A stretch of DNA of 64,000 bases from contig CANMGS010000002.1 in the NCBI GenBank assembly GCA_947497475.1, positions 620,001 to 684,000 of the forward strand, in the 5' to 3' direction. Numbering within the stretch: position 1 is the stretch's first letter; each line of letters starts with the position of its first letter. Source of the DNA: an uncultured Amylibacter sp. (lineage in GTDB: Bacteria > Pseudomonadota > Alphaproteobacteria > Rhodobacterales > Rhodobacteraceae). Shown one piece after another: positions 17,440-42,588 of the stretch. The translations under genes were made by a program, and so were the position numbers. The notes under the pieces were generated by a model that was given only the letters and a program-made list of their open reading frames with translations, was not told the DNA's origin and searched no databases.

Positions 17440-20298
17440 TTATTCAGCGGCAGTTCTTTGCGGATTTAACATACCTTTCAGGTAGTGCCCCGTATAACTG
17501 CCTTTAACTTCGGCCACTTCTTCTGGTGTACCTGTAGCAACGATTTGACCACCGCCATCACCACCCTCTGGACCAATATCAATGATGTGATCTGCTGTTT
17601 TTACTACATCCAAATTATGTTCAATAACGATCACTGTATTGCCTTGATCGACTAGTTCATGCAAGACTTCTAGTAATTTTCGAACATCTTCGAAATGTAG
17701 ACCAGTTGTAGGTTCGTCCAAAATATAAAGTGTTTTACCCGTAGAGCGTTTCGCCAATTCTTTGGATAATTTCACACGTTGCGCTTCACCACCAGATAAC
17801 GTTGTAGCTGGTTGGCCAACCTTAATATACCCAAGCCCAACACGCATCAACGCAGTCATTTTATCTCGGATACTTGGCACAGCCTTAAAGAATTGCTCAG
17901 CATCTTCGACAGTCATGTCCAAGATGTCAGCTATACTTTTACCCTTAAATAACACTTCCAAAGTTTCACGGTTGTACCGTTTACCCTTACAAGTTTCGCA
18001 TTCCACATAAACATCAGGCAGAAAGTGCATCTCGATCTTAATTAACCCGTCACCCTGACAGGCCTCACACCGTCCGCCCTTTACATTGAAACTAAACCGA
18101 CCAGGTTTATATCCCCGCGTTTTCGCCTCGGGTAACCCAGCAAACCATTCACGGATCGGTGTAAACGCCCCTGTATAAGTCGCAGGGTTAGATCGCGGTG
18201 TTCGTCCAATGGCACGTTGGTCAATATCGATCACTTTATCTAGTAAAGTCAGACCATTCACCGCCTCACATGGCGCAGGTGTTTGTTTTGCTCCATTCAG
18301 ACGCATTGAAGCTGTCTTAAATAGCGTTTCAATCGTCAGCGTAGACTTACCGCCGCCAGAAACACCCGTAACGCAAACGAATTTACCCAGCGGGTACTCT
18401 GCGGTAATGTTTTTCAGGTTGTTCCCTGTTGCGCCTTCTACAGTAACAGACTTGCCTTTACCTTTGCGACGTTCCACAGGAATGCTGATTTCACGTTTTC
18501 CTGTAAGATACTGACCTGTAATAGACTTCTTTGATTTTATAATCTGTGCAGGTGTTCCTTTGGCAATAATCTCACCGCCATGAACACCAGCGCCTGGACC
18601 AATATCTAAAACATAATCCGCCGTTCGAATGGCTTCTTCGTCGTGTTCTACAACAATTACGGTATTTCCCTGATCCCGCAGGTTTTTTAGTGTTTCTAAT
18701 AAACGGTCATTATCGCGTTGATGTAAACCAATGGATGGCTCATCGAGCACATATAAAACACCTGTCAAACCAGAGCCAATTTGCGATGCTAAACGAATAC
18801 GCTGACTTTCTCCGCCTGATAACGTGCCCGCAGAGCGTGAAAGTGTCAGATAATCCAAACCAACGTTTACCAAGAACCCCAAACGTTCGCGGATTTCTTT
18901 TAAAATCGCCGTAGCGATCTCATTCTTTTGTTTAGTTAGACTTACAGGTACGCTTTCAACCCAATCCAACGCCTCTTTAATAGACATTTCAACCACTTGA
19001 CCCACATGTAGATCAGCGATTTTTACGGCCAAAGCCTCTGGGCGCAGACGGTACCCACCGCACGTCCCACAGCCACGGTTGTTCTGATAGCGTTCAAATT
19101 CTTCGCGGATCCAGTTGCTGTCCGTTTCGCGGTAGCGACGCTCCATATTTGGGATCACACCCTCAAATGTTCGCGTTACCTCATAAACCCGCCCTGCTTC
19201 GTCATAACGAAACTTGATCTCTGTATCGCCTGATCCATGCAACATTACTTGCTGCACCTTTTTAGGCAGATTACGCCATTCAGCATCCTTATCGAAACCG
19301 TAATGCGCTGCGATCGCTTCGATGGTTTGCTTGAAATACGGCGATTTTCCTTTTGCCCAAGGGGCCAAAGCACCGTCATATAGGGATAAGCGCGTATCTG
19401 GCACAACCAAACGTTCGTCAAAGAACAGCTCTACGCCCAGACCATCACAGTCAGGACAAGCGCCGAAAGGTGCGTTGAATGAAAACAACCGTGGCTCAAT
19501 CTCTGGAATGGTAAACCCAGATACAGGGCATGCAAAGTTTTCAGAAAAAGTAATACGCTCTGGCTCACCTTCTTTTGGCGCGGTTTCCAGAATGGAAATC
19601 CCATCGGCCAAATCCAAAGCGGTACGTAAACTATCCGCCAGACGCGTTTCCAACCCTTCACGCACAACAATTCGGTCAACAACCACATCAATATTATGGC
19701 GAAATTTCTTATCTAATGTGGGCGCATCGTCCAGCTCATAGAACTCGCCGTTCACCTTCACACGTTGAAAGCCCTGTTTCTTAAGCTCTTGAAACTCCTT
19801 GCGGTATTCGCCTTTGCGGTCCCGTACAATCGGCGCCAACAGATAGGCGCGTGTGCCCTCTTCCATCGCCATAATACGGTCAACCATTTCAGACACTTGT
19901 TGTGCCTCAATCGGTTTGCCCGTTGCTGGTGAATATGGCGTCCCAACTCGCGCAAACAACAATCTCATATAGTCGTATATCTCGGTTACAGTACCCACGG
20001 TAGAACGCGGATTTTTCGATGTGGTTTTTTGCTCAATCGAAATCGCAGGTGATAATCCCGCAATATGATCCACATCAGGCTTTTGCATCATATCCAAGAA
20101 TTGACGCGCATATGCAGACAAGCTTTCCACATAGCGGCGCTGCCCTTCAGCATAGATCGTATCAAACGCCAGCGATGATTTGCCAGAGCCAGACAAACCA
20201 GTGATCACCACAAGCTTGTCGCGCGGAATATCCACATCCACGGATTTCAGATTATGTTCACGTGCACCGCGGATTTCGATATTCTTTAGCTCGGCCAT
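17440..20298 (-). CDS. uvrA: Excinuclease ABC subunit A
   Basis: 952 aa; [37 protein letters not shown], zinc-binding CxxC motifs, two ABC signatures. Confidence 0.98.
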
Positions 20299-20368: not shown

Positions 20369-20383
20369 GAACACAAGGGGAAC
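20369..20383. promoter_or_regulatory. Candidate LexA/SOS box upstream of uvrA (GAAC-N7-GAAC on +, GTTC-N7-GTTC in the uvrA sense direction)
   Basis: gaac acaaggg gaac, 71 nt before the uvrA start; matches the known alphaproteobacterial SOS box. Confidence 0.75.
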
Positions 20384-27913: not shown

Positions 27914-28348
27914 ATGTCAGACAACCAAGATTTGATGAAGCTTTATTCACAGCGCATCCTGAAACTTGCTGCTAACATTCCCCTGATTGATCGTTTGGAA
28001 AACCCAGATGCAACGGTGCGTAAACGCTCGCCACTCTGCGGTTCTACGGTAGAGGTTGATGTAAACGTCGAAAACGATGTGATCACCGCATATGGCCAAG
28101 ACGTAAAGGCTTGCGCATTGGGTCAAACTGCTGCTTCTGTGCTGGGCGCACATGCTGTCGGTGCCTCCAAGGATCAATTGGAAAAGGCACGCGATCAGTT
28201 GTTCGCCATGCTTAAAAACGATGGTCCTGTGCCCGACGCCCCTTTCAATGACCTAGAGGTTCTTTTGCCTGCCAAAGAATACTCTAACCGCCATGCCTCT
28301 ATTATGCTTGCCCTCGAGGCCACATTGCAAGCTATGGAAGAAGCATAA
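27914..28348 (+). CDS. IscU/NifU-like Fe-S scaffold-type protein
   Basis: RKRSPLCGSTVEVDVNV, KACALGQTAASVL. Confidence 0.85.
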   Translation: MSDNQDLMKLYSQRILKLAANIPLIDRLENPDATVRKRSPLCGSTVEVDVNVENDVITAYGQDVKACALGQTAASVLGAHAVGASKDQLEKARDQLFAMLKNDGPVPDAPFNDLEVLLPAKEYSNRHASIMLALEATLQAMEEA

Positions 28349-28379
28349 AAAAACACCGCAATCCAAAGGGATGCGGTGT
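28347..28379 (-). terminator. Rho-independent terminator on the minus strand, downstream of the 39-aa ORF
   Basis: Minus strand reads ACACCGCATCCC ttt GGATTGCGGTGT followed by a T-run (7 A's on + at 28347-28353); no T-run on the + side. Confidence 0.75.
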
Positions 28380-28518: not shown

Positions 28519-28638
28519 CTAGTAAAGCCCTGGCAGATGAAGACCAACCATGAGCATGACAAAAATAGCTGTCAGGCCAAGAGTATCCTCAATAATGGCT
28601 TTTGGAGAGTGGGTTGCGAGCTTAGAAATATGTTTCAT
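28519..28638 (-). CDS. 39-aa single-TM small protein MKHISKLATHSPKAIIEDTLGLTAIFVMLMVGLHLPGLY
   Basis: Translated by hand from the minus strand; AGGAT-type SD upstream, one hydrophobic segment, own terminator, SOS-box-like motif upstream. Absent from the 60-aa-minimum ORF track. Confidence 0.7.
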   Translation of the reverse strand: MKHISKLATHSPKAIIEDTLGLTAIFVMLMVGLHLPGLY

Positions 28639-28721
28639 TGTATCGTATCCTGCCAAGGTTTGTTTCAGTGTTTTGTTCTTTTTGTTGCCCCTTTGTTCTC
28701 ATATGTTTGTTCTTTTGTAAA

Positions 28722-28736
28722 GAACTTTATGAGAAC
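28722..28736. promoter_or_regulatory. Candidate LexA/SOS box (GAAC-N7-GAAC on +; GTTC-N7-GTTC towards the 39-aa ORF)
   Basis: gaac tttatga gaac, 84 nt before the small-ORF start; same motif, orientation and similar distance as at uvrA. Confidence 0.65.
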
Positions 28737-28775
28737 ATTGGTGAACAAATTAGAACATCCTTAACTAAGATATAT

Positions 28776-30866
28776 CTAACCTATTGATAACAAACGAATA
28801 GATTTTTCGTGTTCTAATAGGTATAAAAGCGTGATCACGGCGTTACCACGGCGTGATTGCAGTTTTGCATCCTCATGGATCAGCAATCTGGCGTCATCAT
28901 GGGCAATTTTCATCAGGGTTGTTTGGGCTTCCAAATCACCAACACGGAACCGTGCAACACCAGATTGCGCTGTTCCCAACAGATCCCCTGCACCGCGTAA
29001 TTTCAAATCTTCCTCTGAAATTCGGAACCCATCTTCGGTTTCACGCATGACAGTCAAACGCCGTTCTGCCGTTTTGCCCAAAGGGGATGCATACATCAAC
29101 AAACAGGTGCTTGCTTGGGTTCCACGTCCAACACGGCCCCTTAACTGGTGTAATTGTGCCAAACCAAAATGTTCTGCCTGTTCAATCACCATGATTGACG
29201 CATTGGGGACATCCACCCCCACCTCAATCACAGTTGTAGCAACCAGAATTGACGTTTCACCGTTGATAAACGCCTGCATGGCTGCATCTTTTTGCGCCAC
29301 AGGCATTTGCCCATGCACCAATCCAACGTTTTCATCACCCAAGGCCAAGCGCAGCGTTCTAAACCTATCTTCGGCGGCGGCATGATCCACCAATTCGCTT
29401 TCTTCGACCAATGGACACACCCAATAGGCTTGTTTGCCTTCAGCAATCGCAGCTTTCAAACGGTCAACAACTTGATCCATACGGGAATTCGAAACCAACA
29501 CAGTGCTAATCGGTTTCCGCCCCGGTGGCTTTTCATCCAGAATAGACACATCCATATCACCGTAATGCGAAAGCTCTAATGACCGTGGAATTGGTGTGGC
29601 TGTCATCACCAAAACATCAACAGCATCACCTTTTGCGCCCAAATCCATACGTTGACGCACTCCAAATCTGTGCTGTTCATCGATCACTGCAATACGAAGC
29701 GCAGAAAATTCCACATCTTTTTGGAATACGGCATGTGTCCCCACCAAAATATGGATATTTCCTTCAGCCAACGCGTTTAACTTTGCTGTGCGTTCTTTGC
29801 CCTTATCGCGCCCTGTTAGTATTTCCAGAACCACGCCTGCCTCTTCGGCCAAAGGTTGTAGCCCAGATAAATGCTGACGCGCTAAAATTTCCGTCGGGGC
29901 CATCATCACACCCTGCCCGCCTGCCTCAACCGCGGCTAGGATTGCCATAAAGGCCACAAGCGTTTTACCAGCCCCTACATCCCCTTGTAGCAAACGGTTC
30001 ATACGGTTGTTGTCCGCCATATCCGTTGTGATCTCATCAATCGATCGGCTTTGTGCGCCTGTTGGCTTATATGGTAAAGATGCCAGCACTTTATTACGCA
30101 GTTTACCCGTTCCCAGTGTCGGAATACCTTTGGCGCGCCGCGTATTGGCGCGTGCAATCGCCAAAGTGGTTTGATGCGCTAGAAACTCATCATAGGCCAA
30201 ACGTTCACGTGCTCTGGCTTCACGTGACAGATCAGATGTGGATTGTGGGGCATGTGCTGCCAAAACCGCGTCTTTCCAAGATGGCCAACCGTGTTTCTTC
30301 AAAACTGAGGGTTCAATCCATTCAGGCAAATCGGGCATACGTGCCAAAGCCCCTTTAGCAGCTTTTTGGATCAACTTTTGGGTAATCCCAGCTGACATAG
30401 GATACACAGGTTCAATGGGCGGAATATTGTCTGCCTCATCCACAGATAAAATATAATCTGGATGCACCATTTGTGCCAAACCATCAAAGACTTCCAACTT
30501 GCCAGAAATAATCCGCTTCTGCCCAGATGGCAGTTGTTTTTGCAACCAATCCTTACGCGCATGAAAAAACACCAACTGAAAACTGGCGTTTGAATCCTCG
30601 ACCATCACACGATATGGGCGGCCTTTGACGGCATTGGGTTGATGCAAACCAACAGTGACCTCTACAGTCACAACAGAAGGTAAAACCGCATCATTAATAG
30701 TTTTGATAGGATTGCGATCAATCAAATTATGCGGCAGCGTGAACAGCAAATCAGCAGGCTTTTCCACGCCCATTTTGGCAAAATGCTCTACTGTACGCGG
30801 TCCAACCCCATCCAGACCTTTTAGGTCAGCGAATAATGGAAAAAGTATTTCAGGACGGCGGCTCAT
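28776..30866 (-). CDS. recG: ATP-dependent DNA helicase RecG
   Basis: RLLQGDVGAGKTLVAFMA, DEQHRFGVRQR, VMTATPIPRSL, QLRGRVGRG. Confidence 0.97.
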   Translation of the reverse strand: MSRRPEILFPLFADLKGLDGVGPRTVEHFAKMGVEKPADLLFTLPHNLIDRNPIKTINDAVLPSVVTVEVTVGLHQPNAVKGRPYRVMVEDSNASFQLVFFHARKDWLQKQLPSGQKRIISGKLEVFDGLAQMVHPDYILSVDEADNIPPIEPVYPMSAGITQKLIQKAAKGALARMPDLPEWIEPSVLKKHGWPSWKDAVLAAHAPQSTSDLSREARARERLAYDEFLAHQTTLAIARANTRRAKGIPTLGTGKLRNKVLASLPYKPTGAQSRSIDEITTDMADNNRMNRLLQGDVGAGKTLVAFMAILAAVEAGGQGVMMAPTEILARQHLSGLQPLAEEAGVVLEILTGRDKGKERTAKLNALAEGNIHILVGTHAVFQKDVEFSALRIAVIDEQHRFGVRQRMDLGAKGDAVDVLVMTATPIPRSLELSHYGDMDVSILDEKPPGRKPISTVLVSNSRMDQVVDRLKAAIAEGKQAYWVCPLVEESELVDHAAAEDRFRTLRLALGDENVGLVHGQMPVAQKDAAMQAFINGETSILVATTVIEVGVDVPNASIMVIEQAEHFGLAQLHQLRGRVGRGTQASTCLLMYASPLGKTAERRLTVMRETEDGFRISEEDLKLRGAGDLLGTAQSGVARFRVGDLEAQTTLMKIAHDDARLLIHEDAKLQSRRGNAVITLLYLLEHEKSIRLLSIG

Positions 30867-39828: not shown

Positions 39829-42588
39829 CTATGACAAATACTGCAAAATGATCCGCTCTGCATCCTTTGTTTTCGACATCATAGCTGCTTCTAACGTCGC
39901 ATTATCGGCAAAACCAGTCACTGATAGGATGTGATCTAAGCCTGATTGGCTTAGCGTATTTACATCAAAACTACCTGTTACGAGTAAACGGCTGATATGT
40001 TGCACTTGGGATAGTAAGCTATGCGTTTCGATTAGAATTAGTGCATCATCCGAAGATAATAATTCCGCTTCTGCTGCCAAAGCCAATTGACCCTTGGGAT
40101 CATTTTCCAAGATATTTCCGATTAAAGCACAGGCTTGGGCCAAAAGTTCTATATCAAGTAAGCCACCTTTGACTTCTTTGACCTCCCAGATACTTTTATC
40201 TTTGGATTTAGTCTCACTTAGTTTTTGACGCATATCCGCGACATCTGTCAAAACTTTTGAGCGGTCATGTTTCGATTGCACAATATTTTCCCGGATACCT
40301 TCGACTTGTTTAATCACGGTATCAGATCCAGCAACAACCGATGCACGTGTCAGGGCTAAATGTTCCCATGTCCATGCTTCATTACGTTGATAATTTTCAA
40401 AACCAGTAACGCTTGTTGCCACGGGTCCTTTACGACCAGATGGACGTAAGCGCATATCTACCTCGTAAAGCTTCCCTTCCCCCGTTAAAGACGTGAGAGC
40501 AGTTACAAGCGCCTGTGTTAAACGTGCATAATATTGCGCAGGTGCTAGTGGTCGTGAGCCATCTGAAGTATCTTGATCCGCTGGATCATAAATCACAATC
40601 AAATCCAAATCAGACGTTGCTGTCATTTCACATGACCCCAACTTACCCATTGCCAGAACGGCTAAACCGCCGCCAGCAATTATACCGTGCTTGCGTTTAA
40701 ACTCTTGCTCTACATAGGGTAATATTCCGGCTAAACAGGCCTGTGCTAATTCAGAATAAGCTTGGGATGCTTCAAATGCGTCGGCAATATTACGCAGTTG
40801 TAAAACACCTATACGAAAATGATGTTCTTTGTGCCAACGGCGCGCCATATTAAGTTGATCTTCATAATCTGTAAGCCCCGAAAGAGCCTTATGAAATCCA
40901 GCAATTAAGGCGTCTTTATCAGGTAAAGGTTCAAAAAACGTTCCAGCAATAACAGCATCTAAAACATTAGCATTTTGTGCAAGATATGTGGCTAGTGATG
41001 GGGCTGTACTGACGATATCTAACACCAAATCCAGAATTTTTGGATTGCTGTTGAATAGTGAAAATAACTGCACTCCTGTTGGTAAGCCGCTGATAAACGT
41101 TTCAAAATGCCGTAATGCATCTTGGGGGTCTTTTGAATCGGTTAAACCTTTTGAAATACGAGGTTTCAAACGTTCAAAAATATCTACCGCACGTGGACTG
41201 CGAAAAGCTGGTAAACTTAGCCATGATGCAAAGGTATCTTCAAAATCATCAATACTACTTGCTTGTTCTTTCTGTGGCGCAAAGAATTTTTCTATAATAT
41301 TATGAATATCTTGCAGGTCTTTTTGAATGTAAGCAAAGAAAGTTTGCGTATCTTCTGATCCACAAAAACGTGCAAAACGGTTCATATCATCATCTGACGA
41401 TGGCAGGTCGTGTGTTTGAATATCCCCAATCATTTGAACACGATGTTCATGTGTTCGATGTTTACGATACGTTTTTTGCAATGTTTCACATATAGATTGA
41501 TCAATCCAACCGCTGTCAGCAAGATTTTGCAATGACACAACGGTTCTACGGTCACGCAAGGTTGGATCGCGCCCACCTGCAATCATTTGGCGGGTTTGCG
41601 CAAAAAATTCAATTTCACGAATGCCGCCCCGCCCCAGTTTCATATTGTGCCCAGAAACAGATATATCCGATGTCAGCTTTTTATGTTCTCTGATACGCAA
41701 GCGCATATCGTGTGCATCTTCGATCGCAGCAAAGTCTAGGTGTTTTCGCCATATAAAAGGTTTCAAGTCCTCTAAGAACCTTTCACCAGCGGATATATCA
41801 CCAGCACAACTACGCGCTTTGATAAAAGCGGCGCGTTCCCATGTCCGTCCTTCGTTCTCATAATATTGCAATGCTGCAGTTGTTGACACACAGACGGGTG
41901 TAACAGATGGGTTTGGGCGTAGTCGTAGATCTGTGCGAAACACATATCCATCCCCTGTTACATCAGATAAAATTTTACACATACGTTGTATGATTTTGAT
42001 GAAGTGTGGGCGAAGCTCGCCAATGTCATCATCAGCATAACGCGCGTCATCGAATAAACATATCAGATCAATATCTGACGAGTAGTTTAATTCAAATGCC
42101 CCCATTTTACCCATAGCCAGAACGAAAATTCCGGCACACTCATCTGGTACATCAGCTGCATGATTAGGCACTTTGCCGCGTTCAATATCTTGGGCGACTA
42201 AATGTCTAAGCGTAATATGGCAGGCATAATCAGCAAAACGTGTTAAGGCTGTTGTCACCTCTTCTAACGTCCAAACACCTCCTAAGTCACATAGGGCTGT
42301 CAAAAGTGCTATACGGCGCTTTGCTTGGCGCAGACTGGCTTCTATGTTTGTGTCATCAATATCCGTTAAGCAAGCTTCGAAGACAGTCCAAGGGTCCTCT
42401 TTCCATATCGATTGCAACCAATCGGCTTCTTTTGTGATTAAACCGCGCAAATAAGGGCTACAGCCAGCTGTTCCTAAAATTAGATTATAAACAGGCCCAG
42501 ATGTAAGATTTAAGATCGCTACAGTTTCATTTGCGCGTTCTATATTATACGGGATCGGTGTTGATGAAATATGGTCTTGAAAAATCAT
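39829..42588 (-). CDS. glnE: Glutamine synthetase adenylyltransferase / adenylyl-removing enzyme
   Basis: FVLAMGKMGAFELNYSSDIDLICLFD and LAVLAMGKLGSCEMTATSDLDLIVIYD duplicated nucleotidyltransferase motifs. Confidence 0.95.
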   Translation of the reverse strand: MIFQDHISSTPIPYNIERANETVAILNLTSGPVYNLILGTAGCSPYLRGLITKEADWLQSIWKEDPWTVFEACLTDIDDTNIEASLRQAKRRIALLTALCDLGGVWTLEEVTTALTRFADYACHITLRHLVAQDIERGKVPNHAADVPDECAGIFVLAMGKMGAFELNYSSDIDLICLFDDARYADDDIGELRPHFIKIIQRMCKILSDVTGDGYVFRTDLRLRPNPSVTPVCVSTTAALQYYENEGRTWERAAFIKARSCAGDISAGERFLEDLKPFIWRKHLDFAAIEDAHDMRLRIREHKKLTSDISVSGHNMKLGRGGIREIEFFAQTRQMIAGGRDPTLRDRRTVVSLQNLADSGWIDQSICETLQKTYRKHRTHEHRVQMIGDIQTHDLPSSDDDMNRFARFCGSEDTQTFFAYIQKDLQDIHNIIEKFFAPQKEQASSIDDFEDTFASWLSLPAFRSPRAVDIFERLKPRISKGLTDSKDPQDALRHFETFISGLPTGVQLFSLFNSNPKILDLVLDIVSTAPSLATYLAQNANVLDAVIAGTFFEPLPDKDALIAGFHKALSGLTDYEDQLNMARRWHKEHHFRIGVLQLRNIADAFEASQAYSELAQACLAGILPYVEQEFKRKHGIIAGGGLAVLAMGKLGSCEMTATSDLDLIVIYDPADQDTSDGSRPLAPAQYYARLTQALVTALTSLTGEGKLYEVDMRLRPSGRKGPVATSVTGFENYQRNEAWTWEHLALTRASVVAGSDTVIKQVEGIRENIVQSKHDRSKVLTDVADMRQKLSETKSKDKSIWEVKEVKGGLLDIELLAQACALIGNILENDPKGQLALAAEAELLSSDDALILIETHSLLSQVQHISRLLVTGSFDVNTLSQSGLDHILSVTGFADNATLEAAMMSKTKDAERIILQYLS

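Follow-up and report, generated by a model that had tools for sequence, protein, structure and literature searches.

The question raised by this locus is whether a very short open reading frame (ORF) directly downstream of recG is a true gene and, if so, whether it is controlled by LexA and what its product might do. The ORF lies in a stretch of 64,000 nucleotides from an uncultured Amylibacter sp., referred to here as the window. It runs from ATG to stop on the minus strand (positions 28638-28519) and encodes the 39-aa protein MKHISKLATHSPKAIIEDTLGLTAIFVMLMVGLHLPGLY, predicted to contain a single transmembrane (TM) segment; the assignment rests on the ORF itself and on the conservation of its family. 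The sequence AGGA is located 9 nt 5' of the ATG, and the gene has its own intrinsic terminator, ACACCGCATCCCTTTGGATTGCGGTGT followed by seven Ts (28353-28379, minus strand; fold -15.9 kcal/mol, z = -5.1). Terminator-like structures are also present 3' of the gene in 77 of 90 and in 72 of 80 related loci. The constant upstream neighbour is recG (28776-30866, minus strand), which was found in this position in 30/30 of the first loci compared and whose end is separated from the ATG of the small gene by 137 nt. The genes commonly found downstream are housekeeping genes, and no neighbour or fusion pointing to a partner for the 39-aa protein was seen at the loci compared. The small gene is present as a single copy in the source genome. 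Searches of its product against Pfam, NCBIfam and PHROG did not result in a family match; plasmid and phage records did not match it either, and an Rfam search of the window was also negative.

Comparative analyses show that the small ORF is a real coding gene under purifying selection that is near-universal in the Rhodobacterales. In a tblastn search, 131 of 298 genomes belonging to the same GTDB family matched the protein. With a first HMM, built from 29 members, hits were obtained in 186 of the 198 high-quality genomes of the order sample and in each of its 89 genera, all belonging to one family, and when divergent members were added to the HMM, 270 of the 298 family genomes gave a match. 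Genera that seemed to lack the gene were mostly false negatives of the HMM: reading the sequence downstream of recG revealed in most of them a divergent ORF of 31-41 aa, encoding a single helix and located behind the same sites described below. At two loci, L238 (G752) and L242 (G638), no such ORF is present downstream of recG. A class-wide sample of 338 alphaproteobacterial genomes gave no convincing full-length match outside the Rhodobacterales family. We take the clade to be the Rhodobacterales because the records matched by the operator bear names of that order (Ruegeria, Sulfitobacter, Rhodobacter, Paracoccus, Roseovarius, Celeribacter, Leisingera and others).

The substitution pattern is that of a protein-coding sequence. 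Between close relatives, 273, 135 and 514 substitutions fall at codon positions 1, 2 and 3, respectively. For the small ORF, pS is 0.56 and pN is 0.17 (median dN/dS about 0.17), while pN is higher, at 0.20-0.32, in every other frame. The reverse-complement frames, taken together, show no stronger coding signal; they include several plus-strand ORFs overlapping the gene, among them 28537-28764. An ATG start codon is present in 90/90 loci, and 72 of these have exactly 40 codons.

Members of the family are about 31-42 aa long and contain one hydrophobic helix. In the 39-aa protein, one hydrophobic stretch (about residues 19-38) follows a short N-terminal segment, and a structure model, calculated with only the single sequence as input, consists of one helix spanning residues 12-38; its insertion into the membrane is a prediction only. 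Asp18 and Gly21 are invariant, also in the divergent members, and Leu35 is nearly so; Pro36 occurs in every one of the first 29 members and is missing from some divergent ones. Charged residues are almost absent beyond the conserved Gly. Because the N-terminal part carries almost no net charge across the family, a topology with the N-terminus inside is only a guess.

We then considered the region between recG and the small gene. A LexA matrix was built only from the recA, lexA and uvrA sites of 30 relatives. In these genomes an exact GTTC-N7-GTTC box is present upstream of recA (28/29), lexA (27/28) and uvrA (26/28), and therefore GTTC-N7-GTTC is the working LexA site of this clade. The top matrix score in the window (20.8) belongs to the box GTTCCCCTTGTGTTC (20369-20383), located 70 nt upstream of uvrA (17440-20298, minus strand), which itself is part of the training set. 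The second best (18.6) is GTTGCCCCTTTGTTC (28684-28698, plus strand; GTTG-N7-GTTC) and the third best (15.0) is GTTCTCATAAAGTTC (28722-28736, minus strand), an exact GTTC-N7-GTTC whose distance to the ATG of the small gene is 83 nt. The small gene is therefore preceded by two convergent LexA-like sites, hereafter site 2 and site 1, respectively; there are no binding data for either. Site 1 is extended upstream by an additional GTTC half-site (28743-28746, minus strand), giving GTTC-N6-GTTC-N7-GTTC, of which each base is kept in 79-84 of 86 loci. Between the two sites lies the sequence TTTACA (28716-28721, minus strand), a candidate -35 element; TT[T/G]AC is conserved at positions 26-30 of element 1, and its role is inferred.

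An earlier note, based on the window only, had placed a 39-aa ORF at 28638-28519 with an AGGAT-like Shine-Dalgarno sequence, a minus-oriented terminator at 28347-28379, a position after a sciP-ctrA-ligA-recG cluster, and an exact GTTC-N7-GTTC 84 nt upstream, with the same motif 71 nt upstream of uvrA. The ORF, the AGGA, the terminator and both boxes held, with the slightly different terminator position and distances given above, and so did the recG part of the cluster. The facing, better-scoring site 2 and the extra half-site had been missed: the operator is double, and the box noted then is, according to the matrix, the weaker of the two sites.

The bare motif was rejected as evidence, since it is not enriched in the source genome, which contains 68 matches to GTTC-N7-GTTC versus 105 to a reversed control pattern; the window contains five, versus 1.6 expected. 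The case for LexA sites is built on how they score with the matrix, on there being a second site and on conservation, not on the motif alone. The deficit relative to the reversed control possibly reflects avoidance of stray LexA sites. A further hit of the LexA matrix in the window, GTCCGTCCTTCGTTC (41843-41857, plus strand; score 12.0), is located inside a 919-aa ORF (39829-42588) and is probably due to chance.

The two-site element is highly conserved. Of 90 loci, 84 have an exact GTTC-N7-GTTC upstream of the small gene, within a narrow range of distances, and 86 clearly have the whole element. Over the 90 loci, its layout is GTTCRCAAATGTTCTYAWAAAGTTCTTTACA, a spacer of 13 nt (78 loci) or 12 nt (9 loci), and ATGAGAACAAAGNGGCAACA; in site 2, GAAC and AAC are invariant over the 86 aligned loci. 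A reciprocal search with the core of the element was performed in genomes from 85,462 species. At least 120 stretches matched; each of the 80 that were retrieved runs straight into a gene of this family, and recG is located upstream in 79 of them. In two relatives of the same genus, the second site is rearranged to a perfect GAAC-N7-GAAC-N7-GAAC array and the surrounding conserved bases are changed, which means that the LexA spacing is kept while other bases change. In the reduced genome G033, one perfect LexA box remains (score 21.5).

Both sites nevertheless deviate in a fixed manner from the consensus of the recA, lexA and uvrA sites. Base 7 of the spacer of site 1 is A in 82 of 86 loci, whereas all 83 known sites have T or C there. 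In site 2, the expected GAAC is replaced by CAAC in 73 of 86 loci. The mean matrix scores of the two sites (11.7 and 14.5) are below those of most known sites (mean 21.6). These deviations may mean that the affinity is tuned, or that a second protein binds as well. A related arrangement was observed at recA promoters of the order (L075-L101, L257, L260), which contain a GAAC-N7-GAAC box and a degenerate facing site, GTTC-N7-GGTC or GTTC-N7-GATC, with scores up to 17; convergent LexA sites may thus be a promoter design common to recA and the small gene.

Genomes that apparently lost LexA provided a further line of evidence. lexA was not detected in 8 of the 298 genomes, and we used the recA operator to tell assembly gaps from true loss. 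In five genomes, lexA is absent, or only weakly matched (G060), and recA also has no LexA site. The small gene is absent from four of these (G008, L254; G029, L261; G060, L263; G167, L258). The fifth (G157, L102) has kept the small ORF with a run-on C-terminus, and both sites are gone. Where a recA site survives (G197, G148, G021 and, more weakly, G028), the small gene and its sites are kept. Absence of the small gene in 4/5 genomes without the circuit versus 24/293 other genomes corresponds to a Fisher p of about 3e-4; the numbers are small, the grouping is post hoc and shared ancestry was not controlled for. No recG match was found in two of the gene-less genomes (G029 and G060), and hence the locus itself may be gone or have diverged there. 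The ORF of G157 (L031/L249) extends to 75 aa and may be degenerating now that SOS control is gone.

At the sequence level, these data establish the operators and connect them to LexA circuits. That the small gene is controlled by LexA is very likely, given the conserved sites, the 80/80 outcome of the reciprocal search and the loss together with the LexA circuit in five genomes; in the absence of induction or binding data, repression and induction are inferred from sequence alone. The earlier note had proposed conservation of the peptide, with coding-type substitutions, and of the box in relatives as checks. The peptide passed across the Rhodobacterales, and the box, which is conserved as well, resembles in sequence the recA, lexA and uvrA operators of the same genomes. 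Its overall interpretation, an SOS-induced small membrane protein, is supported, with the induction inferred; the designation "effector", i.e., a division inhibitor or toxin, remains an inference by analogy.

Many functions are conceivable for a 39-aa membrane helix, and its topology, target and effect are inferred. Our preferred reading is that the protein sits in the membrane and inhibits septal wall synthesis during the SOS response, a proposal made by analogy and without phenotype data, which could as well be wrong as right. LexA bound to the two convergent sites, inferred to lie over the -35 region and over the -10/start region, would repress the gene; upon DNA damage, RecA-driven cleavage of LexA would allow the protein to be made. 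Its short N-terminus would be cytoplasmic, and the helix of about residues 19-38, with Asp18, Gly21 and usually Pro36, is predicted to cross the inner membrane. Within the membrane, the protein may dock on the septal peptidoglycan synthase complex (FtsW/FtsI/FtsN) and pause division until repair, like SidA in Caulobacter. We rank such a septal checkpoint first, another membrane partner second and a TisB-like toxin third, because, in several phyla, the SOS division inhibitors that do not belong to the SulA group are small proteins with one TM helix that target the septal synthase. The 29-aa, SOS-induced SidA acts on FtsW in Caulobacter, where the FtsW/I/N complex is the target of both SidA and DidA, the latter being SOS-independent (PMC4211646). 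The TM helix of YneA binds TM7 of FtsW, and AlphaFold 3 models suggest the same for SidA, SosA and ChiZ (PMC13396833). About 97% of Caulobacter SOS promoters carry one box (PMC12700426), and a double operator therefore suggests a product whose level needs to be low. The vertical inheritance of the gene as part of the core, its separate terminator and the fact that no partner was seen were counted as support for this reading.

The closest competitor is that the SOS-induced membrane protein tunes a machine other than the divisome: a membrane protease, a transporter, a sensor kinase such as CckA, or the release of gene transfer agents (GTA). LexA has been linked to the CtrA phosphorelay and to GTA traits in Rhodobacterales (PMC6473078), and a specific partner, rather than a generic helix, is suggested by the Asp-x-x-Gly conserved where the helix enters the membrane and by the Pro usually present close to where it leaves. 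Against it, no neighbour or fusion indicates such a partner, recG being constant and the downstream genes housekeeping; on balance we lean against this explanation. A bolder version remains possible, though rather unlikely, in which the protein is an ancestral, undescribed SOS effector of the Rhodobacterales, tied one-to-one to a two-operator LexA promoter and with an order-specific membrane target outside the divisome, for instance the CckA-CtrA/gene-transfer-agent circuit; if true, this would be a new kind of SOS output. A membrane-active toxin of the TisB/DinQ type, lowering the proton-motive force and favouring dormancy, would fit the small size and hydrophobicity of the helix and a LexA operator that is double and presumably tight. 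Type I toxins usually have a patchy distribution and come with an antisense RNA. The small gene is single-copy, belongs to the core of almost every genus, has been inherited together with recG and evolves under purifying selection; plasmid and phage records gave no hits, the window has no Rfam match (an unknown antisense RNA cannot be excluded), and few charged residues follow the conserved Gly, unlike in an amphipathic pore peptide. We therefore regard a toxin as unlikely.

Two further explanations concern the nature of the locus itself. The element could be the operator of a regulator other than LexA, the gene then not being an SOS gene. That each site differs systematically, by one base, from the recA, lexA and uvrA consensus would agree with this, and DNA-damage genes outside the SOS response exist, such as didA under DriD (PMC4211646). 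However, the matrix ranks both sites in the top three of the window, perfect GAAC-N7-GAAC arrays occur in the own-genus relatives and a single perfect box in G033, and the gene or its sites are lost along with the lexA/recA-operator circuit, which makes this explanation very improbable. Finally, a non-coding RNA or a chance ORF next to recG might be invoked, as the inverted repeat upstream of the gene gives a good fold in the window (z = -3.9). The codon-position pattern, the lowest pN in the true frame and the conserved start codon and length leave hardly any room for it, and relatives do not preserve the additional base pairs of the repeat, the outer pair being mostly A in both arms. A conserved leader RNA hairpin was rejected for the same reason, and the dyad is therefore read as two facing protein sites.

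Assuming the preferred septal checkpoint, the protein would have the position in the SOS response that SidA occupies in Caulobacter crescentus. The two share a tiny single-TM architecture, LexA control through GTTC-N7-GTTC (inferred for the small gene) and an alphaproteobacterial host. The protein described here differs from SidA in being slightly longer, in its conserved Asp-x-x-Gly and two convergent LexA sites, and in occurring throughout one order while not being found in the other alphaproteobacterial families sampled. YneA, ChiZ and SosA of Gram-positives and mycobacteria likewise combine SOS control with one TM helix, which in YneA binds FtsW. They are longer, and YneA and ChiZ have an extracytoplasmic C-terminal LysM domain, whereas the protein described here has no Pfam domain and ends at the TM helix. 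The E. coli SOS-induced toxins TisB and DinQ resemble it in size class, single TM helix and LexA control; in contrast to these, no antisense-RNA partner was seen and the gene is core, not patchy. With SulA of E. coli, only the proposed role in SOS-induced division inhibition is shared: SulA disrupts FtsZ polymerisation, is not a small single-helix membrane protein, and no relation to the small protein was seen.

We found no prior description of the small gene in the open-access literature searched, which excludes subscription papers and supplements, including those of the R. capsulatus and R. sphaeroides lexA studies. Neither recG nor the small gene is named in the relevant main-text sections on the in silico LexA list of D. 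shibae (PMC6473078; supplement excluded), and the open-access literature searched names no SulA or SidA equivalent for the Rhodobacterales. We consider the small gene to represent a new family among the SOS-induced small membrane proteins, and do not call it SidA, homology and mechanism being untested. Model strains of Ruegeria, Sulfitobacter and Rhodobacter belong to the Rhodobacterales, a major marine order, and how division is stopped there after DNA damage is the gap addressed here; a 40-codon core gene tied one-to-one to a double LexA operator offers a direct and easy experimental target. Several genomes of the order, in which LexA is lost or weak and recA has no LexA site, appear to represent natural SOS-less lineages, and they form a clean natural set for studies of SOS evolution.
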